A DNA stretch of 20,255 nucleotides from IMG/VR virus record IMGVR_UViG_3300032333_000158, positions 1 through 20,255 of that record, one strand, 5' to 3'. Source of the DNA: a virus. The notes under the pieces are model-generated. The model was not told the origin of the DNA, made no database searches, and saw only the letters and a list, made by a program, of their open reading frames with translations. The position numbers and the translations under genes were made by a program. Below, one piece after another: positions 3,395 to 14,101 of this stretch (positions are counted from its first letter, which is position 1; the number at the start of each line of letters is the position of its first letter).

Positions 3395-4010
3395 TGATTT
3401 AGAGCGTAGGTTTTTTTGCGCTGAAGATTTGGCGATAGAAACAAGAGAGGCTGACAGCAATAAAACTGTATTGCGCGGCCATGCCGCTGTATTCAATCAA
3501 CTGTCTGTTGACCTTGGAGGCTTCCGCGAACAAATTGCGCCGGGAGCTTTTCTAGATGCTATCAATCAAGATGACATTCGCGCACTATTCAATCATGACC
3601 CTAACATGATTCTCGGCCGCAAGCAGTCCGGCACATTAAGATTGCAGGAAGACTCTCATGGCCTGCTGGTTGAGCTAGACATCCCTGATACAAATGCAGG
3701 ACGCGATTTGATTACCAGTATTAAACGCGGTGACGTTAATCAAATGTCCTTCGGCTTTAGAGTCAAGCCAGGCGGTCAGGACTGGGCGAAGGATGAAGAA
3801 GGAAGGATGATAAGAACGCTTAAGAAAGTTGGTTTGTTGGATGTATCGCCAGTTACTTTTCCAGCTTATCCGCAAACTGACATTGCTGTACGTGAGATGA
3901 GAAGTTACTTAGATGCAATTAATCAAACTAATGTAGAAGACACACATAAAAATAAAAATAAAATGCTCTTAAAGCTGAAGCTTGCGGGGCGTGTTTTGTC
4001 CACGGTCTAA
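3375..4010 (+). CDS. Prohead protease, HK97 family (U35/S78)
   Basis: Maturation serine protease that digests the scaffold part of the capsid protein inside the prohead. The protein is 211 residues, starting at an ATG with GGAG 9 nt upstream inside the portal gene. Family motifs are VLRGHAAVFNQLS (about 32-44), REQIAPGAFLDAI (about 51-63), FNHDPNMILGR with the putative catalytic His at 74, and VNQMSFGFRV with the putative nucleophile Ser at 125. VGLLDVSPVTFPAYPQT is also typical. The last about 25 residues (lysine/asparagine-rich, then LLKLKLAG) lie beyond the conserved fold, and their DNA is A-rich. The stop codon lies in the loop of a terminator-like hairpin. Confidence 0.93.
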   Translation: MSNKIASDLERRFFCAEDLAIETREADSNKTVLRGHAAVFNQLSVDLGGFREQIAPGAFLDAINQDDIRALFNHDPNMILGRKQSGTLRLQEDSHGLLVELDIPDTNAGRDLITSIKRGDVNQMSFGFRVKPGGQDWAKDEEGRMIRTLKKVGLLDVSPVTFPAYPQTDIAVREMRSYLDAINQTNVEDTHKNKNKMLLKLKLAGRVLSTV

Positions 4011-4044: not shown

Positions 4045-5316
4045 ATGAATAACAGCAACATTAAAAAACTGCAGGACGAGCACGCACGCCTTGTAACAGA
4101 AGCGCGTAGTTTGCTCGAGGGTGATGTATCAAAAGAAAACGAAGAGCGTTTTGATAAGTTGATGGCTGATGCTGATGGCATCGAAGCTCGGGTTAAGCGT
4201 GAGCAACGAGCAGAAGCAGCAGAAAAAGCGATGGTCGGCAAGATTCATCAAGCTGCTGAGAAGAAAGGCATTACTCGTTCAGAAGCAGAAGGGCGAGAAG
4301 TTGAGTATAGAGATGCGTTTAGGAACTGGGCTAAGTTCGGCGAAGCTGGATTAAATGACGAATCACGAAGCATTCTTTCCTCACGTCAAGTAAATATTGA
4401 TGGTTCTGAGTTACGTGCGCAGTCAGTATCGGGCGGTTCGCCTGTTGGCATTTACGGCGGTTACACTGTGCCACCCGAAATGGTTATGAACATCGAGGAA
4501 GCATTAAAGTCATATAGTGGCGTGATGCAAATCGCTGATGAGTTCACGACTACAAGCGGTGTTGATTTGCCATGGCCGAACACCAATGACACATCGAACA
4601 AAGGTGCGATCCTCGGTGAAAATCAGCCAGTCGATGAACAAGACATTACGTTCTCGACAACCACATTCAAATCATTTTTGTACTACTCGAAATTGATTCG
4701 ATGCAGTTATCAATTGTTGCAAGATTCGGGATTCAATTTAGAAGATCACATTACACGTGTTGCTGCTGAGCGAATCGGCCGCAAACTAAATGAAGACTTC
4801 ACCACCGGCGTTGGTGTAACCACACCGCTTGGCGTCGTTAGTGGCTCTACGCTTGGCTATACGGGATTAACTCAACTCTCTATAACTTATGATGCGCTAG
4901 TACAACTAGAACACTCTGTAGACCCAGCTTATCGCTCAAGCCCAAAAGCTGCCTGGATGTTTAATGATCAAACATTAAAAGCTCTTCGCTTGATGAAAGA
5001 CTCAACAGGCCGTCCCCTTATCTGGGGACAAGACGGAAACTTAGGGCAAGGCGCTGTACCTTCGCTTTTTGGTAAGCCTTATTATATCAATCAAGATATG
5101 GCTTCACTTGGCGCAGCAAGCAAAAGCGTTTTGTTTGGTGATTTCAGTAAGTACAAAATCCGCAAGGCTCGCGAGTATGTAATGGTTCGCCTCAATGAGC
5201 GTTACGCAGACCGCTTGCAAGTTGGTTGGTTTATGTATTGCCGATTTGATGGACGTTTAATCGATGCCGGTACGCATCCATTAAAGTACTTACAACAAGC
5301 AGCATCTTCGCCTTAA
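4045..5316 (+). CDS. Major capsid protein, HK97 fold
   Basis: Main shell protein, 423 residues, starting at an ATG with AGAAGGAAA upstream. Residues about 5-75 are charged and strongly helical (EHARLVTEARSLLEG, ERFDKLMADADGIEARVKRE), which fits the scaffold-like delta domain removed by the upstream protease. The shell domain appears to begin around 125-135, near SVSGGSPVG; I infer cleavage there but cannot see the exact site. Family signatures are GGYTVPPEMVMNIEEAL, AILGENQPVDEQDITFS, YYSKLIRCSYQLLQDS, AAERIGRKLNEDFTTG, AAWMFNDQTLKALRLMKD, GKPYYINQDMASLG and LFGDFSKYKIRKAREYVMVR. The gene is flanked by terminator-like hairpins on both sides, unlike its densely overlapping neighbours. Confidence 0.96.
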   Translation: MNNSNIKKLQDEHARLVTEARSLLEGDVSKENEERFDKLMADADGIEARVKREQRAEAAEKAMVGKIHQAAEKKGITRSEAEGREVEYRDAFRNWAKFGEAGLNDESRSILSSRQVNIDGSELRAQSVSGGSPVGIYGGYTVPPEMVMNIEEALKSYSGVMQIADEFTTTSGVDLPWPNTNDTSNKGAILGENQPVDEQDITFSTTTFKSFLYYSKLIRCSYQLLQDSGFNLEDHITRVAAERIGRKLNEDFTTGVGVTTPLGVVSGSTLGYTGLTQLSITYDALVQLEHSVDPAYRSSPKAAWMFNDQTLKALRLMKDSTGRPLIWGQDGNLGQGAVPSLFGKPYYINQDMASLGAASKSVLFGDFSKYKIRKAREYVMVRLNERYADRLQVGWFMYCRFDGRLIDAGTHPLKYLQQAASSP

Positions 5317-5337: not shown

Positions 5338-5367
5338 CAACCCCGCGCAATGCGGGGTTGTTTATTT
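5338..5367 (+). terminator. Intrinsic terminator after the capsid gene
   Basis: CAACCCCGC (5338-5346) pairs perfectly with GCGGGGTTG (5352-5360) around a GCAAT loop and is followed by TTTATTT. The nine-base-pair GC-rich stem and U-rich tail make this the clearest terminator in the window. It lies 22 nt after the capsid stop and before the small gene at 5381, so it should lower transcription of the inserted cassette relative to the capsid gene unless it is antiterminated. Confidence 0.8.
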
Positions 5368-5380
5368 AGGAGTTTTAAAA

Positions 5381-5623
5381 ATGAAAATACTAAGATTTAC
5401 TGAATCAGTAGCGGGCTTAGATTTTAGCTACAACATCGGGCAGGTCGCTTTAGTCAAAGATTCTTTAGCCAAAGATTTCTTGCGCGGCAAATGTGCAATT
5501 CAGGTTGAGCAAGACGGAGAGGTAGAAGAAGCAACAACAAATAGTTTGCCCGGCTCTGAGGTGTCGGCTTTAGTAAATACGAAAAGTAAGCGTAGATATA
5601 CTAAAAAAACCTTGGCGCAATGA
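5381..5623 (+). CDS. Small head-region protein, first copy (upstream part of a possible frameshift fusion)
   Basis: Protein of 80 residues with a clear TAGGAG 8 nt before its ATG. I do not recognise a named family. It begins MKILRFTESVAGLDFSYNIG, then a segment ending KDSLAKDFLRGKCAIQVEQ, and then an acidic to basic linker ending SKRRYTKKTLAQ. It resembles the protein at 6221 (same MKI start, a G...V....A.D..R...A pattern, same length), so the two are probably paralogues. Small proteins of this type are commonly encoded just after the capsid gene. Five codons before its stop it crosses a run of seven A (5603-5609), where another frame carrying a GT42-like domain begins. It may therefore exist both alone and as the N-terminus of a fusion of about 280 residues. 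Confidence 0.75.
   Translation: MKILRFTESVAGLDFSYNIGQVALVKDSLAKDFLRGKCAIQVEQDGEVEEATTNSLPGSEVSALVNTKSKRRYTKKTLAQ
5603..5609 (+). promoter_or_regulatory. Candidate slippage site (A7) joining 5381 to the GT42-like frame
   Basis: The sequence reads ACT AAA AAA ACC in the frame of the upstream gene. A +1 shift of Lys-tRNA from 5606-5608 to 5607-5609 keeps perfect AAA pairing and continues CCT TGG CGC into the enzyme frame; a -2 shift would give one more Lys. Equivalently, six or nine A in the DNA or mRNA would fuse the frames. No stimulatory structure was identified. This is inferred from frame geometry and the position of conserved motifs. Confidence 0.45.
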
Positions 5624-5654
5624 TATCGTTTGTTGCATCGCTACCGGCCCATCT

Positions 5655-6224
5655 TTGACCGTTGAAGATGTTGAGTACGTTAAAAACAAATGCAAGATAG
5701 TTGCAGTAAATAACGCTTACAAAATAGCGCCGTTTGCCGATGCGCTGGTGGCTTTAGATACGGACTGGTGGGCTACGAATTGGAAAGACGAAGAGCTAAG
5801 AAATTTTAAAGGTTTAAAGTTTGCAACTGACCCTGATGTGCGTGACAGATTTGGCGCGCACTGGGTGCATGGCGTGATAAGGAATGGTTTATCGACTGAC
5901 TGGGATAATGTAGCCGTGGGCGCCGACTCAGGTTACTATGCGCTTGCAATAGCTGTGCTTATGGGGAGCACAAAAATAATCATGCTGGGCTATGACATGG
6001 GACATGCAAGTGACGGTAAAACTCATTTCTTTGGCGATCATCCTAGCAACTTACGTAACTGTAGTCCGTATGACTTATTTATTGAAAGGTATGAAACGAT
6101 ACCTACTTGGTGCGGTGAAAACGGTGTGCAGATTTTTAACAGCACGAGGCAAACAAGATTAAATTGTTTTAATCGTGCAAACGTTAGAGATGCTTATTCA
6201 AATTTAATAGGTAACTTCAAATGA
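5655..6224 (+). CDS. GT42/DUF115-like glycosyltransferase domain, first copy
   Basis: The part downstream of the first possible start (TTG at 5655) is 189 residues, but the true coding frame is open from 5577. Upstream codons read KKPWRNDIVCCIATGPSL, and ATGPSL is the nucleotide-sugar-binding loop expected at the N-terminus of GT42 sialyltransferase-like and DUF115/MptE-like proteins. Residues counted from the TTG show KIVAVNNAYKIAPFADALVALDTDWW (14-39, given in pieces: VNNAY, ALDTDWW), then DSGYYALAIAVLMGSTKIIM (91-110) and LGYDMG, matching the SG..A..IA...G...I.L.G.D pattern of GT42 enzymes, and HFFGDHP. The TTG has no Shine-Dalgarno and would cut off GPSL, so a fusion to the 5381 protein is more likely. 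The donor and acceptor sugars are unknown. Confidence 0.72.
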   Translation: MTVEDVEYVKNKCKIVAVNNAYKIAPFADALVALDTDWWATNWKDEELRNFKGLKFATDPDVRDRFGAHWVHGVIRNGLSTDWDNVAVGADSGYYALAIAVLMGSTKIIMLGYDMGHASDGKTHFFGDHPSNLRNCSPYDLFIERYETIPTWCGENGVQIFNSTRQTRLNCFNRANVRDAYSNLIGNFK

Positions 6225-6478
6225 AAATAAAAATCATTCGTGATTTCGTAAGCGCTGAGACTGGCGGTAGAAATATTAAAGCGGGCGAAACTTTAGAAGT
6301 CAGCAACGATTATGCAAATGATCTTGTTAGATTCGGCATTGCCGTTGTGTTTAAGCAAGAAAAAAAAACGGCAGAAGTAAAGCCAGAGTTCTTGGCAAGT
6401 GGGAAAAAGCCGCGATCATCGGCACGGGGCACAGTGCGAAAAATGCTAGGACTGAAGAGCTTAGAAGAGAAGGAATAA
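6221..6478 (+). CDS. Small head-region protein, second copy (upstream part of a possible frameshift fusion)
   Basis: Protein of 85 residues; its ATG overlaps the previous stop (ATGA). The first about 47 residues (MKIKIIRDFVSAETG, NIKAGETLEVSNDYANDLVR, FGIAVVFKQ) look like a compact beta-rich domain and resemble the start of the protein at 5381. At codons 47-49 the gene runs through nine A (6360-6368). Beyond this the zero frame continues for 36 basic, low-complexity residues, while the -1 frame carries the conserved start of a GT42-like domain. The tail after the A run may therefore only be what is made when no frameshift occurs. I cannot name a family. A role as a head-associated or carrier domain is inferred from position only. 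Confidence 0.72.
   Translation: MKIKIIRDFVSAETGGRNIKAGETLEVSNDYANDLVRFGIAVVFKQEKKTAEVKPEFLASGKKPRSSARGTVRKMLGLKSLEEKE
6361..6367 (+). promoter_or_regulatory. Candidate -1 frameshift site A_AAA_AAA (within A9)
   Basis: In the frame of the 6221 gene the codons are GAA AAA AAA ACG. The heptamer A_AAA_AAA fits the X_XXY_YYZ rule for -1 slippage, and a -1 shift continues AAC GGC AGA straight into the enzyme frame that encodes IIGTGHSA. The full A run is 6360-6368, so transcriptional slippage to ten A would do the same. A weak stem GCCAG/TTGGC (6382-6386 with 6392-6396) lies about 14 nt downstream. This is inferred from frame geometry. Confidence 0.55.
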
Positions 6479-6507
6479 AAATAGTTTGCGTTAATGATGC
6501 TGTTAAT

Positions 6508-6960
6508 TTGTTTGATAGCTATGATTTGCACTATGCCGCTGATTTAGAATATTGGGTTAAATATTTCAGCGTACACAACATTGATAATTTAAGTAAGCGC
6601 TGGACTTGCAACGATATAGCCGCACACGTGTATGGCATTAATCATGTTTCTGTTGTTCAGCAAGATGTATTCTCAAAACAAAATAATTGTGTTTCGTCAG
6701 GCGGTAATAGTGCGTTCCAAGCTTTTAATCTGTGTTTACATTTCGGCGTAAAAGATTTTTATTTGTTTGGCTTAGATATGGGTGGCGGTCATTTTTTTGG
6801 TGAGCGCTCAGGTGATTTTAAATCAGCGAATAAAACAGATTACGAAAGATGGGCCATTAATTTCAATTTTGCAATCGAGCAATATCAAGAAGAATTAAAA
6901 GTATATAACTGTTCTGCGCCATCATTACTCAGGGGGATGAAGTGCGAGCGTTTTGTTTAA
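6508..6960 (+). CDS. GT42/DUF115-like glycosyltransferase domain, second copy
   Basis: The first possible start (TTG 6508) gives 150 residues, but the frame is open from 6355, and the upstream codons encode GKWEKAAIIGTGHSA and then GIKIVCVNDAV, the conserved N-terminal half of the fold. No ATG, GTG or TTG exists in that extension and the TTG has no Shine-Dalgarno. Downstream are YAADLEYW (residues about 9-16), SSGGNSAFQAFNLCLHFGVK (about 63-82), DFYLFGLDMGGGHFFGE, and a C-terminal VYNCSAPSLLRGM. The SG..A...A...G.K..YLFG.DM core and the late N.S...L element match GT42 sialyltransferase-like proteins and mirror the copy at 5655. It is probably made as a fusion of about 246 residues with the 6221 protein. 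Substrates cannot be inferred. Confidence 0.72.
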   Translation: MFDSYDLHYAADLEYWVKYFSVHNIDNLSKRWTCNDIAAHVYGINHVSVVQQDVFSKQNNCVSSGGNSAFQAFNLCLHFGVKDFYLFGLDMGGGHFFGERSGDFKSANKTDYERWAINFNFAIEQYQEELKVYNCSAPSLLRGMKCERFV

Positions 6961-7718
6961 TAAAAGAAGAACCGCATTACAGAAGAGAAGCCTTTGTTTC
7001 AGGTTTGCAAAAACTTGGTTACAAAGTTTTCTTTGATGTCGATTTGCGCGACATTAGAAAAGATGACTTGCTTGTGATCTGGAATAGATACGGACACTTT
7101 GACGAATTCGCAAAGCTCTATGAAGCAAAAGGCTGCAAAGTCATAGTTGTTGAGAACGGATATCTAGGCGTTCAATACAATGATAAAGTTTGGTACTCGA
7201 TAGCATTAAGTCACCATAATGGCTATGGAAAATATAGATTAATTGCGGATAGATTTTTTGATCAAAATCTAAAATTTTCAGAATGGAAAACAACGGGAAG
7301 AGAAGTCGTTGTTTTAGCCCAGCGTGGCATCGGTGAGAAATCAATCGCAAGCCCTGACAACTGGGAATACTACGCTAAAGATTTGATCGAACATAAGACT
7401 GGCTTACCTGTTCGCATTCGACAGCACCCAGGGCTTACTTACGCGATCGATCTCGCTGAGGATTTGAAGAACGCAAAGTTTGCGGTTACGTGGGGGTCAG
7501 GTGCAGGAATAAAAGCCATCACGCTCGGCGTTCCCGTAGTGCACGGTTTGCAAAACTGGATAGCGAAAGATTCATCCCTGCATATCTCAGAATTTGATAT
7601 GAAAAAATTATTCAGAGGCGATAGAACAAAAACATTCTGCAATGTTTTTTCAGCTATGTGGAATCTGCAAGAAATATACGATGCGCGGCCATTCGTGGAG
7701 CTGTTGAATGAAAACTGA
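6942..7718 (+). CDS. KpsS/KpsC-like capsule-type glycosyltransferase, first copy
   Basis: Protein of 258 residues starting at GTG 6942, with AGGGGGA at 6931-6937; it overlaps the previous gene by 19 nt. The N-terminus (EAFVSGLQKLGYKVFFD, LLVIWNRYGHFDEFA, KVIVVENGYLG) and the C-terminal half (VLAQRGIGEKSIASP, RIRQHPGL near 158-165, FAVTWGSGAGIKAITLGVPV at about 180-199) have the GT-B-like layout of the KpsS/KpsC capsule polysaccharide transferases and related CDP-glycerol/Kdo-type enzymes. These add sugars at the cytoplasmic side during surface-polysaccharide synthesis. The specific sugar is unknown. It is paralogous in layout to the gene at 9089 and opens the first of two transferase-methyltransferase-glycosyltransferase trios. 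Confidence 0.72.
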   Translation: MRAFCLIKEEPHYRREAFVSGLQKLGYKVFFDVDLRDIRKDDLLVIWNRYGHFDEFAKLYEAKGCKVIVVENGYLGVQYNDKVWYSIALSHHNGYGKYRLIADRFFDQNLKFSEWKTTGREVVVLAQRGIGEKSIASPDNWEYYAKDLIEHKTGLPVRIRQHPGLTYAIDLAEDLKNAKFAVTWGSGAGIKAITLGVPVVHGLQNWIAKDSSLHISEFDMKKLFRGDRTKTFCNVFSAMWNLQEIYDARPFVELLNEN

Positions 7719-8253
7719 TTGTGATGATTTTTATAATAGTTTCGTGAAGCCAAAGCCAGGTCAAGCCTTGGTTGTTGGCTCTAAAATTTATCCAGGACGC
7801 ACAGACCAGCGCAAGAAGTTCGAGCAGTGTATCGGCTTAGACATGCTGGAAGGTGACGGGGTTGATCTGGTTTGGGATTTAGAAAACCCGCTACCGAAGC
7901 AATACTATAATTTCTCGCATGTTGAATGCTGTTCTGTTTTAGAGCATGCGCGCCGTCCATGGTTAGTTGCGAAGAACATAGAGAATTCTTTACGCAACGG
8001 CGGAACGTTGTTTGTTTCTGTGCCGTTCGTTTGGCGAATTCATGCTTACCCAAATGATTATTTCAGATTCACACCTGAAGGACTGAAAAGTCTTTTTGAT
8101 AAAATAACATTTTCAGAAATACGGATGATCGTCAAAGGTAAGATGTTTAATTACCTTGATGCGCCATCATTCACAATAGACGATGACGGCAAAGAAGCTG
8201 TTACTTTTGAACGATGCTTAGTGATGGGGTTCGGTAAAAAATGCGGATCCTAA
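7708..8253 (+). CDS. Class I SAM-dependent methyltransferase, first copy
   Basis: Protein of 181 residues; the ATG at 7708 follows GGAG and overlaps the previous stop. Rossmann-type methyltransferase elements are in order: a degenerate motif I strand (ALVVGSKIYPG, residues 20-30), motif II IGLDMLEGDGVDLVWDLENP (42-61, D45), SVLEHARRPW (76-85), LRNGGTLFVSVPFVWRIHA (95-113) and NDYFRFTPEGLKSLF (116-130). This is the Methyltransf_11 pattern seen in sugar or small-molecule O-methyltransferases of polysaccharide clusters. Motif I lacks the usual G.G.G, which is notable but occurs in this subgroup. Flanked by two transferases, it most likely methylates a sugar; a DNA or protein target is less likely because no such recognition domain is present. 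Confidence 0.8.
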   Translation: MKTDCDDFYNSFVKPKPGQALVVGSKIYPGRTDQRKKFEQCIGLDMLEGDGVDLVWDLENPLPKQYYNFSHVECCSVLEHARRPWLVAKNIENSLRNGGTLFVSVPFVWRIHAYPNDYFRFTPEGLKSLFDKITFSEIRMIVKGKMFNYLDAPSFTIDDDGKEAVTFERCLVMGFGKKCGS

Positions 8254-9092
8254 TTACCGGCAAACCCAACCAAGGCTCGTGGAAAATAAGAGCCGAACAG
8301 CTAGGCGGAGCAATATCGGCGAAGGTTATACCCGATGCGAGAATTGAAGACATCAGAAAATGCGATGTCGTCATCGTAGTTAAAAACTTCACAGTAGGTT
8401 TGCTAGATAGAATACGCTCGCTTAAAAAGCCAATCGTTTGGGATTGCGTGGACTTCTGGCCGCAGCCGCTTGGCAATACTTGGGATCGTGAGAAGTGCTT
8501 GCAGTTTTTACGCAAGAAACTATCAGGCGTTGGCCCGCAGATGGCTATAGCTGCAACAAAGCAGATGGCCGACGACATGAAAGAATGCAGGCTACCAATT
8601 AAGATTGGTTATCTAAAACACCACGCAAGACCAGACCAAAGAAAGAACGAGATACGCGACCAAATCAAAGTGATAGGTTATGAGGGCTCGCCTCGTTATT
8701 TAGATTTTTGGCGCGAGCACATCGATGACATATGCGAGCAGGCTAAATACAGATTCGTGATTAACCCAGATCATTTGGCTGATGTCGATGTGTGCCTTGC
8801 ATTGCGCGGCGGTGAGTGGGACGGATACGCAACGAGGAATTGGAAATCTAACGTTAAGCTCGCCAACATGCATGACACTGGAACGCCAGGAATACTTGGG
8901 CCTGAGGCTGGCTACTTAGAAAACCGCACGGGCGCAGAGTACCTAGTATCTGACCCAAGGCATTTAAAGTATGCGATGAAGTGGCTAGAACCAAGGGAAG
9001 TCAGACAAGAAATTAGCGAAAGGTTTTTATCTGTTGATACAAGCTTGGAATCTGTAGCAAAAGAATATTTAAAAATACTGAGCAGCTTATGA
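8241..9092 (+). CDS. GT-B-like glycosyltransferase
   Basis: Protein of 283 residues from ATG 8241, overlapping the methyltransferase by 13 nt. It starts MRILITGKPNQGSWKIRAEQ, a first strand and loop as in GT-B enzymes, followed by CDVVIVVKNF, KKPIVWDCVDFWPQPLG (62-78) and IAATKQMADDM (103-113). The second half has IKVIGYEGSPRYLDFW (142-157), VDVCLALRGG, then NVKLANMHDTGTPGILGPEA (204-223), equivalent to the donor-binding K..N....G.P.I.......E region of GT4-like enzymes. It probably transfers a sugar from an activated donor; donor and acceptor are unknown. The stop overlaps the next start (ATGA), so it is cotranslated with its neighbours. Confidence 0.65.
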   Translation: MRILITGKPNQGSWKIRAEQLGGAISAKVIPDARIEDIRKCDVVIVVKNFTVGLLDRIRSLKKPIVWDCVDFWPQPLGNTWDREKCLQFLRKKLSGVGPQMAIAATKQMADDMKECRLPIKIGYLKHHARPDQRKNEIRDQIKVIGYEGSPRYLDFWREHIDDICEQAKYRFVINPDHLADVDVCLALRGGEWDGYATRNWKSNVKLANMHDTGTPGILGPEAGYLENRTGAEYLVSDPRHLKYAMKWLEPREVRQEISERFLSVDTSLESVAKEYLKILSSL

Positions 9093-9943
9093 TTGAAGTC
9101 GAGATGTTAATCAACGAGAACACTAGAAAGCGCGGCGATATCATGCTTCGCTCGCTTGCATGTTCTGCGCAAGAGAACGGCATAACGTGCAAGATAACTA
9201 AAAAGTATTCGAGCAAGTTAAAAAATATAATGCTCTGGGGTGTCGGTGATCACGATAGAAATTTAATTTTCTTAGATCACATAAAAAACGGCGGGGATGC
9301 GTTTTGCTGGGATATGGGCTACTGGCATTCTCGCTCGGGCTCAGATGTTAGCAACGCTTATAATAGATTCTCAAAAAATCATTTCCATCCGCAAGCTTTA
9401 TTGCTCGATTTAGAACTAAAGGAAGGCTACAAAGACAGATTCGACTTGCATGATTCGCTAGTTTTTAGAGATGTCTATGATGAGAATGGCCCGATAATTT
9501 TGGTTGGGAATGGGCCTAAAACGTGCGCGCACTTGGGAATAAACAGGGGTTCTTGGGAGGCCAAAGCCTTGGCGAGAATCGTAGAAAAGTTTGGCAAAAA
9601 AAAGAAAATAATATTTAGGCCGAAACCTAACAACGACTACGAAAGTTTAGACGGAGTGACCGTTGATCAGCTTAGCTCTATTGATGATCTGATGTGCGGC
9701 GCATCGCTTGTTGTATGCCGCCACTCTAACGTTGCGGTGGATGCAATCAGAAACGGTATAGCGGTTAGCTGTGAAGATGGCGCGGCCAATGCTGTATATA
9801 ATGACGACTTATCAAACAAGCCGATAAGTCTTGATATTGCAAAAGATTTTCTAGCCAAGCTTGCGTGGTTTAATTACTCTCAGGTACAGGGTGCAACAGG
9901 GGTTTTTTGGAAGTTCGCTATAGAGCATGGGGTGATTTCATGA
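9089..9943 (+). CDS. KpsS-like capsule-type glycosyltransferase, second copy
   Basis: Protein of 284 residues from ATG 9089, overlapping the previous stop. Elements are NIMLWGVGDHDRN (46-58), AFCWDMGYWHSRSG (71-84), IILVGNGPKT (136-145), KKIIFRPKP (172-180) and CRHSNVAVDAIRNGIAVSCE (210-229). The R.KP followed by C.HSN...DAI..GI.V matches the donor-binding half of KpsS/capsule-type GT-B enzymes and parallels QHPGL and TWGSGAG...ITLGVPV in the protein at 6942, though the two have diverged strongly. It contains eight A at 9596-9603 (coding KKKK) with its reading frame intact, a useful control for the A-run frameshifts at 5603 and 6360. It opens the second trio. Confidence 0.65.
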   Translation: MIEVEMLINENTRKRGDIMLRSLACSAQENGITCKITKKYSSKLKNIMLWGVGDHDRNLIFLDHIKNGGDAFCWDMGYWHSRSGSDVSNAYNRFSKNHFHPQALLLDLELKEGYKDRFDLHDSLVFRDVYDENGPIILVGNGPKTCAHLGINRGSWEAKALARIVEKFGKKKKIIFRPKPNNDYESLDGVTVDQLSSIDDLMCGASLVVCRHSNVAVDAIRNGIAVSCEDGAANAVYNDDLSNKPISLDIAKDFLAKLAWFNYSQVQGATGVFWKFAIEHGVIS

Positions 9944-10431
9944 GACTAAATTTAGGATGCGGGCGCAAGGTTTTAGATGGCTGGTTCAACATAGATATTT
10001 CAAGATCGGATTTGGCGACTAGAGACCCAGAATTATTTTGCGATTTAAAGAAATTAAAACTTGCTGATAACGTCGCAGACGAAGCAATGGCGATACATGT
10101 CATCGAACACTTTTACGAATGGGAAGTTATTCCGCTGCTAAAAGAGTGGCTAAGAGTTTTAAAGCCTGGCGCAATGCTAGCGATTGAGTGCCCCGACGTC
10201 ATGAAGTCAGCTAAAAATTTAGTTGACGGTACGGCGTTTCAAGAAAGCATGTGGGGCTTGTACGGCGACCCGCGTCACTGCGATGAATACATGGTGCATC
10301 GTTGGGGCTGGACACCTGAGACGCTCACAGAGTATTTGAAAGACGCAGGATTTAGAAAAATAAAATCTTGTGATCCGCAATGGCATGGCAAGCGAGTGCA
10401 CAGGGATATGAGGCTGGAGGCTTACAAATGA
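9940..10431 (+). CDS. Class I SAM-dependent methyltransferase, second copy
   Basis: Protein of 163 residues. I choose ATG 9940, which overlaps the previous stop (ATGA) and is preceded by GGGGTGA; an upstream in-frame ATG at 9907 would only add 11 residues unlike the family. Motif I RLNLGCGRK (2-10), WFNIDIS (15-21), AIHVIEHF (51-58), EWLRVLKPGAMLAIECPD (69-86), and a C-terminal WTPETLTEYLKDAGFRKIK segment give a complete small Methyltransf_11-type enzyme. Methylation of a glycan or its precursor is inferred from the neighbours. It is not obviously closer to the methyltransferase at 7708 than two random members of the superfamily would be, so it may be an independent acquisition. Confidence 0.85.
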   Translation: MRLNLGCGRKVLDGWFNIDISRSDLATRDPELFCDLKKLKLADNVADEAMAIHVIEHFYEWEVIPLLKEWLRVLKPGAMLAIECPDVMKSAKNLVDGTAFQESMWGLYGDPRHCDEYMVHRWGWTPETLTEYLKDAGFRKIKSCDPQWHGKRVHRDMRLEAYK

Positions 10432-11129
10432 AAATCTATATCGGCTACGATGAAAGAGAAAAAGAGGCGTATTCAGTAGCTAGAAAATCACTCGAAAAAT
10501 ACTCAAGCGCTCGGCATGAAGTTGTAGCGCTTGATGAGCAAAACTTAAGAAAGAGCGGATTACTATCTAGGAATGTAGATAAGCGTGATAAAAAATACGA
10601 TTTAATTAGCAACGCTTATTGCTCGACCGACTTTGCAAACTCGAGGTTTCTGACTCCCATACTTGCACAAAGCGGTTGGGCTTTATTTGTAGACTGTGAT
10701 GTTCTATTCCTCGATGACGTTAGCAAAATAATACCTGACGCTTTGGCTAATAATCCGGGCCACGCTAAAGCTGTCTACGTCGTGAAGCATGACCACGTGC
10801 CGGATAAGCTGCAAAAGATGGATAACCAAATGCAAGTGAAATACTCGCGCAAGAATTGGTCTAGCGTGATGCTATTTAACTGCGATCATAAAGCTAATAA
10901 ACGACTATCATTGAGAGACGTCAACGAAAGAAGCGGCCTTGAGTTGCACCAATTCTATTGGCTCTCAGATGATGAAATCGGCGGCTTGCCGCATGGCTGG
11001 AATTGGCTTGTCGATGTACATAAAAAACCTGAAAATTTGAAGCTGGCACACTATACTTTAGGCGGCCCCTGGTTTGAGGGCTACGAATCAGAGCATAACA
11101 AGTTGTGGTTGGATCACAAAAATGAATGA
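10428..11129 (+). CDS. GT-A glycosyltransferase, GT8-like
   Basis: Protein of 233 residues from ATG 10428, with GGAGG at 10416-10420; it overlaps the previous stop. The start MKIYIGYDEREKEAYSVARK is the nucleotide-binding strand seen in GT8-like enzymes. STDFANSRFLTPILAQSGWA (66-85) precedes LFVDCDVLFLDD (86-97), whose D.D (89-91) should bind the divalent metal and sugar nucleotide. YSRKNWSSVMLFNCDH (139-154) and LAHYTLGGPWFEGY (206-219) complete the fold, the latter in the place of the HxxGxxKPW element of GT8. This protein type is common in phage and host polysaccharide loci. It is the last cassette gene, and its 3' end overlaps the connector gene by 8 nt. Confidence 0.85.
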   Translation: MKIYIGYDEREKEAYSVARKSLEKYSSARHEVVALDEQNLRKSGLLSRNVDKRDKKYDLISNAYCSTDFANSRFLTPILAQSGWALFVDCDVLFLDDVSKIIPDALANNPGHAKAVYVVKHDHVPDKLQKMDNQMQVKYSRKNWSSVMLFNCDHKANKRLSLRDVNERSGLELHQFYWLSDDEIGGLPHGWNWLVDVHKKPENLKLAHYTLGGPWFEGYESEHNKLWLDHKNE

Positions 11130-11715
11130 CTACATTTTAGATGTAATAACGCCACCGCCCGTTGAGCCTGTAACTTTAACTGAAGTTAAGTTGCACTTGC
11201 GCGTTACATCAGTTGATCTTGATGCAACAATATCTGGTTATATAAAGTCGGCTAGAGAGTATGTTGAATCGTTTTTAGATCGAAGCATAATAAGCCAAAC
11301 TTTAAAAATAACTTTACCTTATTTTTGCGATGATTTGGTTTTGCCTCGCGGCATGGTCCGAAGCATAGCTAATGTTGTTTATTACAACAGCAGCAACGTA
11401 TTGACTGGTTTAACGATAGCTGATTATGCAAATTTAATTTCTAGCAACGTTAGCGCCAATAGATTGCAACGCAAGCCATACGTAAGTTGGCCATTGCCAA
11501 TTGCGCGTCGTGACGCCGTGCAGATAACTTACGTTGCAGGTTACGCACCAACAGCAACCAGCGACCCAGACTATGTTGCCAACGTACCGGAAGAAATAAA
11601 AACAGCAATAAAGTTTTTGGTGCAATCAGATTACGACGATCTGATGGCGGATGATAAAGCCGCTGTGATGCGTCACGTGCACGCCAAGTTGTCAATGCTT
11701 AAGCTGAATTGGTGA
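11122..11715 (+). CDS. Head-tail connector protein, HK97 gp6-like
   Basis: Adaptor that docks under the portal ring and extends the DNA channel toward the tail. The protein is 197 residues from ATG 11122; longer in-frame starts lie inside the previous gene and add an unrelated peptide. The N-terminus PPPVEPVTLTEVKLHLRVTS followed by ATISGYIKSAREYVESFLDR and SIISQTLKITLPYF is diagnostic of the gp6-like/YqbG family. VQITYVAGYAP and VPEEIKTAIKFLVQSDYDDL near the C-terminus also fit. It marks the return to the standard structural gene order after the 5.7 kb cassette, and overlaps the preceding glycosyltransferase gene by 8 nt. Confidence 0.9.
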   Translation: MNDYILDVITPPPVEPVTLTEVKLHLRVTSVDLDATISGYIKSAREYVESFLDRSIISQTLKITLPYFCDDLVLPRGMVRSIANVVYYNSSNVLTGLTIADYANLISSNVSANRLQRKPYVSWPLPIARRDAVQITYVAGYAPTATSDPDYVANVPEEIKTAIKFLVQSDYDDLMADDKAAVMRHVHAKLSMLKLNW

Positions 11716-13376: not shown

Positions 13377-13736
13377 ATGAGCAATGTAATTAGTAGAGTT
13401 AGTCTTTTAAACTTTTGCAAAAAGCCGCCAGAGCTTCGAGCTATTAACGCGCTCGGCGGCGCAGAGGTTTACATCAAGCACATGTCAACGAGTGAGAAAT
13501 ACGATTGGGAATTATCAGTGCTAGACGAAGAAGGGAAAGTTAGCAAAGATTTATTGCCTAATTCTTCTTTCACGCTGATTTCAAAGTGTGTGCTAGATGA
13601 GAACCATGTTCCTTTTTTTGCAACTACAAAAGAGGTGGCAGACATCGACGCAGATTTAGCAATGGAACTGCGCGAAGTATGCCAAGAAGTAAATGCAGTA
13701 AAACCTAAGGCTACTAGCGAAGCGGGAAAGTCTTAA
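13377..13736 (+). CDS. Tail assembly chaperone, gpG-like
   Basis: Protein of 119 residues with a strong GGGGGAA before its ATG. NCKK-type start (SLLNFCKKPPELRAINALGG), EVYIKHMSTSEKYDWELSVL, VLDENHVPFF and DADLAMELREVCQEVNA fit the short tail assembly chaperone that keeps the tape measure protein soluble while the tube polymerises on it. Near its end it crosses GCG GGA AAG TCT TAA; G_GGA_AAG is the same heptamer used by lambda G/GT. A minority of ribosomes should shift to the -1 frame and make the longer GT form of about 241 residues. Confidence 0.85.
   Translation: MSNVISRVSLLNFCKKPPELRAINALGGAEVYIKHMSTSEKYDWELSVLDEEGKVSKDLLPNSSFTLISKCVLDENHVPFFATTKEVADIDADLAMELREVCQEVNAVKPKATSEAGKS
13724..13730 (+). 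promoter_or_regulatory. Programmed -1 frameshift site GGGAAAG (G/GT type)
   Basis: GGGAAAG read as G_GGA_AAG in the gpG frame matches the X_XXY_YYZ rule and is identical to the lambda G/GT slippery sequence. A -1 shift reads on as GTC TTA ATC GAT into the frame that runs to 14101. The -1 frame has a stop at 13715-13717 just before, and no ATG, GTG or TTG between there and 13781, so frameshifting is the natural route. Confidence 0.9.
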
Positions 13737-14101
13737 TCGATAACCCTAAACTGCACTTCTTATTTAAGTTAGCGCTTGGCTTGGGAATGAGTGTAGAAAG
13801 AGTTGTCAAAGAAATTTCGGCGGACGAGATCTTATACTGGGAAGCTATGTACATGATTGACCCATGGGACATAGAGCGGATCGAGCGTAGCATTGCCACG
13901 CTCACCGCAATAACTTATAACTTGCAGCTTACAAAAGAAACAAAAGACAAGGCGGTTAAAGTAAGTGATTACATGCCGTGGCTAAAAATCAGGGAAGCAT
14001 CAAAAGATAAGCAAGAAGATTTGTCACCGACATTTACGTCAAGACTGCATCAGATGAGAAAAGTTTTTAAAGCGCGACAAGAGCAAGACAAGGAATTGTA
14101 A
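13730..14101 (+). CDS. Frameshift extension of the tail chaperone, gpT-like
   Basis: The T part of a GT fusion, listed from the shift point; it has no start of its own with a Shine-Dalgarno (the first TTG is at 13781). Translation after the shift begins VLIDNPKLHFLFKLALGLGM, followed by SVERVVKEISADEILYWEAM and YMIDPWDIERIERSIATLTA, the S.....ISA.E...W.A.....PW....ID pattern common to T-type domains. The T domain binds the tape measure protein and recruits tube subunits. The full fusion starts at 13377. Three bases separate this stop from the tape measure ATG. Confidence 0.85.
   Translation, partial: VLIDNPKLHFLFKLALGLGMSVERVVKEISADEILYWEAMYMIDPWDIERIERSIATLTAITYNLQLTKETKDKAVKVSDYMPWLKIREASKDKQEDLSPTFTSRLHQMRKVFKARQEQDKEL

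Follow-up and report, generated by a model that had tools for sequence, protein, structure and literature searches.

How are two glycosyltransferase domains translated that lack a start codon of their own, and what is their role behind a phage capsid gene? These questions are raised by the IMG/VR virus record IMGVR_UViG_3300032333_000158, the complete 20,255 bases of which were analyzed (here called the window) and are part of a siphophage-like genome. Between the major capsid protein (MCP) gene and the head-tail adaptor gene lie eight transferase genes or domains: two GT42-like, sialyltransferase-like (ST) domains (STa and STb), two KpsC-like transferases (G3 and G6), a GT4-type GT-B transferase (G5), a GT8-like transferase (GT8), and two methyltransferases (MT4 and MT7). 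An earlier note, made from the DNA letters of the window, had described these as a sugar-modification cassette within a structural operon, which agrees with the enzyme matches inside the cassette and the head and tail gene matches on both flanks. Both ST domains lack an ATG, GTG, or TTG before their N-terminal nucleotide motif, and each is in a frame different from that of the small open reading frame (ORF) that precedes it (copies a and b). As judged from sequence comparisons, a programmed -1 frameshift appears to join the small capsid-side domain to the glycosyltransferase, in the window phage and in dozens of divergent ones.

Evidence for a probable programmed -1 frameshift

In pair b of the window, STb lacks a start of its own and occupies the frame -1 to copy b, with an in-register slippery heptamer in the overlap. 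The predicted fusion would extend from 6221 to 6367 and, after the -1 shift, to 6957 (about 246 amino acids). The arrangement was defined for a wider survey as the absence of a start within 14 codons of the ST motif, together with an ST domain in the -1 frame of an overlapping ORF. A first sample of 117 ST domains formed 68 clusters (60% identity), 23 of which had the arrangement. An in-register X_XXY_YYZ heptamer was present in the permitted stretch of 21 of these 23, compared to 5.4 expected from codon shuffling (p 9e-12; this p-value and the one below overstate independence because of shared ancestry among the loci), and the other two registers held 6 and 7 heptamers, mostly A runs. Two new scans provided an out-of-sample set of 42 clusters without any member of the first set; 18 had the arrangement (a fraction that is not a prevalence, since the scans were built to return relatives of frameshift loci), and the heptamer was found in 17 of the 18, compared to 6.2 expected (p 2e-7). 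When the sets were pooled, the heptamer was present in 37 of 40 clusters (11.5 expected), with 10 and 11 in the other registers, and an ST domain in the +1 frame alone was found in one locus.

The slippery sites include A_AAA_AAG, A_AAA_AAA, G_GGA_AAA, G_GGA_AAC, C_CCT_TTG, C_CCA_AAG (the site of phage D3), and T_TTT_TTG; a Shine-Dalgarno-like motif was present upstream in some loci only. The same kind of out-of-frame ST arrangement occurs in D3, Psp6, and Tetraselmis-associated virus S20, with one possible GTG 18 codons upstream in D3. GenBank records of the D3 type call the two ORFs separately and start the ST gene at an inner ATG, which truncates the enzyme.

Substitution phase was analyzed in five pairs of related loci; the window, which has no close relative, was outside this comparison. 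Before the heptamer, substitutions peaked at codon position 3 of the small ORF (the 0-frame; 69/52/115 at positions 1, 2, and 3), and past the end of the small ORF they peaked at position 3 of the ST frame (186/142/361); values for the overlap were intermediate (36/29/49 in the ST frame). The 0-frame remained open for more than 21 nucleotides (nt) past the ST motif in all 27 frameshift loci examined, compared to control loci with a self-starting ST gene, 47 of 84 of which had a stop within 21 nt. The mean charge of the small-ORF tail was +4.4, versus +2.4 in the control. Because the frame switches, the 0-frame is kept open, and the tail is basic, both products look selected. Ribosomes would thus be predicted to shift frame at these sites in cells.

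The small ORFs belong to a single, weakly conserved family. Where an MCP was found, the small ORF nearly always followed it directly, with the ST domain usually 155 to 290 bases downstream; in locus L144, a small domain (weak match) is in frame with ST. Pfam searches with the small ORFs gave nothing useful, the DUF7210 match of copy b being below the cut-off. The unshifted products end in basic tails, some of them RGRP-like (L002, 3834-4121, and its relatives; RRRGRPSARTQ in D3 and RRGRPRK in L161), and these tails are reminiscent of DNA- or RNA-binding tails.

No report of an ST-domain frameshift was found in the open-access publications searched, which are part of the literature. PRFect is a frameshift predictor trained on tail chaperones, and the sections of its description covered here do not discuss an ST frameshift.

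Recurrence of the cassette and its possible acceptor

A scan with GT8, from which 80 viral loci were kept, showed ST, G3, (MT4), G5, G6, MT7, and GT8 to be syntenic in about 17 distinct contigs, viral or prophage, close to the head-tail junction. Since the gene order recurs in distinct contigs, the arrangement is not due to chance; the cassette is a conserved module, and its position is recurrent. The earlier note had regarded this location as unusual, a claim rejected here on the basis of the synteny and of the precedent of the Corndog-group phages (PMC4351075; see below). The layout closest to that of the window is in L017, which has the order ST-G3-MT4-G5-G6-MT7-GT8 and the same frameshift, and the order is partial or full across L009-L036 (MT4 is conserved in L017, L022-L026, and L034-L036). 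The module is located ahead of the adaptor gene (window, L017, L031, and L034), between the genes for head closure and neck (L009, L018, L019, and L024), or downstream of the major tail gene (L088, a Variovorax locus). The first ST alignment was too divergent to serve in a scan; later ST-only scans yielded further loci, with ST in the head-tail region in most. Most loci examined place the ST family in the head-tail region, whether behind the capsid gene or at another site, and in the cultured phages D3 and Psp6 it is directly 3' of the capsid gene. Searches of cultured phages with the cassette nucleotide sequence and with the G5 protein gave no match. In other contigs, some of them very large, GT8 relatives (L061-L087) precede tandem arrays of G3/G6-like transferases; this is a glycan locus of another type.

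The explanation that we consider probable is a conserved late-operon glycan module with a frameshifted entry gene whose fusion product docks on the capsid, the acceptor most likely being a virion protein. The entry gene would give two products from one start: most ribosomes would make the short capsid-side protein with its basic tail, and a minority would slip by -1 at the heptamer and make the same N-terminal domain joined to the GT42-like transferase. This entry unit is doubled in the window (pairs a and b). The small domain may dock the fusion on the capsid or procapsid, and such docking would make a virion protein the most likely acceptor. The two KpsC-like, one GT-B, and one GT-A transferase and the two methyltransferases may then build or cap a methylated glycan, with host nucleotide sugars as the source. 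Capsid binding by the small domain, the sugar donors, and the acceptor are all proposed from sequence. A more specific proposal, which we advance tentatively as close to evenly balanced, is that many HK97-type phages, including D3 (where it would have gone unnoticed in annotation), use the -1 frameshift to make a low-copy fusion of capsid-side domain and glycosyltransferase; the enzyme would thereby be brought to the procapsid, or incorporated in it, and would glycosylate the shell as it assembles.

Several observations weigh against these interpretations. RNA structure downstream of the heptamers was only weakly above background (mean z of -0.6), and most ST relatives in full cassettes start at their own codon, so the fusion is not obligatory. 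The bacterial homologues of G5, MT7, and GT8 lie beside an ABC exporter-like pair, which points to surface polysaccharide. Finally, pair a is out of phase: STa is in the +1 frame of copy a, at an A7 run (5603-5609); this could be accounted for by a homopolymer length that differs (in the virus or the assembly) or by a rarer shift through a different number of nucleotides. At one other locus only, L243 (2174-2504), is ST found solely at +1 relative to the small ORF before it, and there it may be a plain downstream gene and not a frameshift.

One alternative is that the frame breaks of the window are assembly or homopolymer errors, the true genes being simple in-frame fusions or separate genes. 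Both breaks are at or beside A runs (A7 and A9), and pair a does not fit the -1 rule; yet pair b obeys a rule to which about 40 independently assembled loci conform, among them those of D3 and the P. putida phage Psp6, and the other long homopolymers of the window fall in intact genes. We regard such errors as improbable. Even less probable, in our assessment, is that the transferase domains are ordinary separate genes, translated via non-standard start codons or reinitiation, with incidental overlap. Many relatives at the same position do start at their own ATG or GTG just before the motif, as this would predict, but it leaves unexplained why the -1 frame is used in 40 clusters and +1 only in one, why heptamers are enriched in a single register (37 versus 10 and 11), and why the 0-frame is kept open through the overlap; moreover, in L164 the space before the motif is just 6 codons long and contains the A run.

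Another alternative concerns the target of the glycan. The cassette could remodel the host surface polysaccharide late in infection, for example against binding of progeny to debris or against superinfection. O-antigen modification encoded by phages is well known, G3 has the fold of capsule and lipopolysaccharide (LPS) Kdo transferases, and the Methyloversatilis homologues of G5, MT7, and GT8 adjoin what by eye appear to be the subunits of an ABC polysaccharide exporter, with one neighbor matching the Pfam sugar O-methyltransferase RMNT_CmcI. The bacterial chromosomal cluster at L104 (7807-16010; also L095, L096, and L101) has the order GT2-G5-MT7-MptE/ST-like-GT8-ABC permease-like-ABC ATPase-like-CmcI-type methyltransferase and is probably a locus for surface polysaccharide, with enzymes in common with the phage cassette. 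Against a host-surface role stand the late position of the cassette, the joining of the entry enzyme to a capsid-side domain in many phages, and the content of the cassette, in which no flippase-like, polymerase-like, or membrane protein was recognized by inspection; we consider this role unlikely, though a more serious candidate than the two alternatives above. A virion glycan is favored over a host-surface glycan because of the entry enzyme with its capsid-side domain, the lack of a strong hydrophobic segment (none in any cassette protein reaches the usual transmembrane cut-off), the annotation of the PAJU2 ST homologue as "structural protein" by its depositors, and the Corndog-group precedent. 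The analysis suggests, short of proof, that phages put sugars on their own particles. The interpretation offered in the earlier note is supported in part.

Relation to known systems

The mechanism proposed here is a variant of programmed -1 frameshifting in phage structural operons. The G/GT tail assembly chaperones of tailed phages (Xu 2004, cited in PMC3483164) likewise have one start, a short product and a minor -1 fusion, an X_XXY_YYZ heptamer, and a place in the structural operon; the ST unit differs in being another gene, located behind the capsid gene, with an enzyme as its C-terminal part. The frameshifted major head protein of Lactobacillus phage A2 (Garcia 2004, cited in PMC10885494) also involves a -1 frameshift that gives a second capsid-region product, but there the capsid protein itself is extended, whereas here a small neighbor protein would be joined to a glycosyltransferase. 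Corndog-group mycobacteriophages resemble the window in having glycosyltransferase genes, with a methyltransferase, among their head genes, and a capsid glycan was proposed for them (PMC4351075); unlike those of the window, these genes lie between portal and protease in phages of Actinobacterial hosts, and the portion of that report considered here describes no frameshift fusion.

The ST profile matches GT42 CstII, and the glycine/serine nucleotide motif near the N-terminus is shared with CstII and MptE/Maf (PF01973), a likeness known at the level of sequence for phage proteins that are shorter. G3 resembles KpsC, WbbB, and KrkA over most of its length (Z of 10 to 14), but with about 11% identity and no sequence-level match, the likeness being one of fold.

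If the proposal is true, a class of programmed frameshift gene in tailed phages is added beyond the tail chaperone and the capsid protein, and it is present in widely divergent phages as well as in the well-studied D3, whose annotated transferase lacks the N-terminal motif. Gene calling would be corrected, since automatic annotation drops the N-terminal nucleotide-binding motif of ST genes. A laboratory phage could then serve to test whether, and why, phages that infect Gram-negative bacteria add sugars to their own particles.

Enzymes of the cassette and neighboring genes

Both ST domains match phrog_4603, labeled alpha-2,3-sialyltransferase, and the three top matches of the ST family profile (A1) in the PDB were GT42 CstII entries (E of 0.0011 to 0.0015). 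The ST domains are thus GT42-like by profile, with putative sialyltransferase activity. Searches of PDB sequences with G3, G5, and G6 profiles gave no convincing match, and the folds of G3 and G5 are therefore predicted ones. The G3 model matched KpsC/WbbB/KrkA with Z of 10.2 to 13.7 (best alignment, 224 residues at a root mean square deviation of 3.8), compared to 7.7 for the next unrelated fold; G3 is modeled with this fold, and its Kdo transferase function is putative. PF05159 sequences were sought in three genomes for comparison of catalytic residues, and none was found there. The G5 model has a GT-B fold with two Rossmann-like domains (Z of about 20, 20.5 at best, over 259 to 267 residues), which identifies the predicted structure as a GT4-type GT-B transferase. 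G6 is assigned as KpsC-like via its profile link to G3, and a bacterial homologue of GT8 matches Pfam GT8. An NCBIfam search gave methyltransferase matches only, all far below the cut-off.

Table 1. Coordinates of the cassette and flanking features in the window
Feature	Coordinates	Strand	Evidence or remark
MCP, HK97 type	4045..5316	+	phrog_10, E 1e-63
Terminator-like hairpin, MCP/cassette gap	5338..5360	+	10 pairs, 7 G-C, T-rich tail
Small capsid-side domain, copy a (0-frame ORF)	5381..5623	+	Small-domain hidden Markov model (HMM), 43 bits (sequence was in build set)
STa, sialyltransferase-like (GT42-like) domain	5577..6224	+	phrog_4603, E 4e-36; no start codon before motif
Small capsid-side domain, copy b (0-frame ORF)	6221..6478	+	Weakly DUF7210-like, phrog_2616; small-domain HMM
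STb, sialyltransferase-like domain	6355..6960	+	phrog_4603, E 7e-19; no start codon before motif; -1 frame of copy b
Predicted -1 slippery heptamer A_AAA_AAA	6361..6367	+	Within A9 run 6360-6368; register 2 of copy b
G3, KpsC/WbbB-like (retaining beta-Kdo transferase fold, predicted)	6942..7718	+	AlphaFold2 (AF2) model, predicted local distance difference test (pLDDT) 95.5; Foldseek E 7e-7
MT4, S-adenosylmethionine (SAM) methyltransferase-like	7708..8253	+	Methyltransf_12, E 0.016, below cut-off (weak)
G5, GT4-type GT-B glycosyltransferase (predicted)	8241..9092	+	AF2 pLDDT 95; Foldseek Gtf3/GtfC, E 2e-8
G6, distant G3 homologue	9089..9943	+	hhalign probability 98.7, E 3e-16
MT7, SAM methyltransferase	9907..10431 (alternative start 9940)	+	Pfam Methyltransf_11, E 1e-6
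GT8-like GT-A transferase	10380..11129 (alternative start 10425)	+	phrog_28018, E 7e-44; DxD motif (DCD)
Head-tail adaptor, first gene 3' of cassette	11122..11715	+	phrog_442, E 5e-22; 8-nt overlap with GT8
Tail assembly chaperone pair	13377-14101		Canonical G_GGA_AAG slippery site at 13724..13730 (+), internal comparison

Terminase, portal, and protease genes precede the MCP gene, and the adaptor gene is followed by those for head closure (Hc1), neck, tail terminator, and major tail protein. MCP relatives were sought among viral contigs by peptide patterns, and none was found. Translational coupling of the cassette, as the earlier note had it, holds in part: the genes overlap from 6221 onward, but full coupling to the capsid gene was rejected, since a 64-nt gap that contains the terminator-like hairpin separates MCP from the cassette. 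A similar hairpin is visible 3' of the capsid gene in Psp6 (L004, around 3640-3670).

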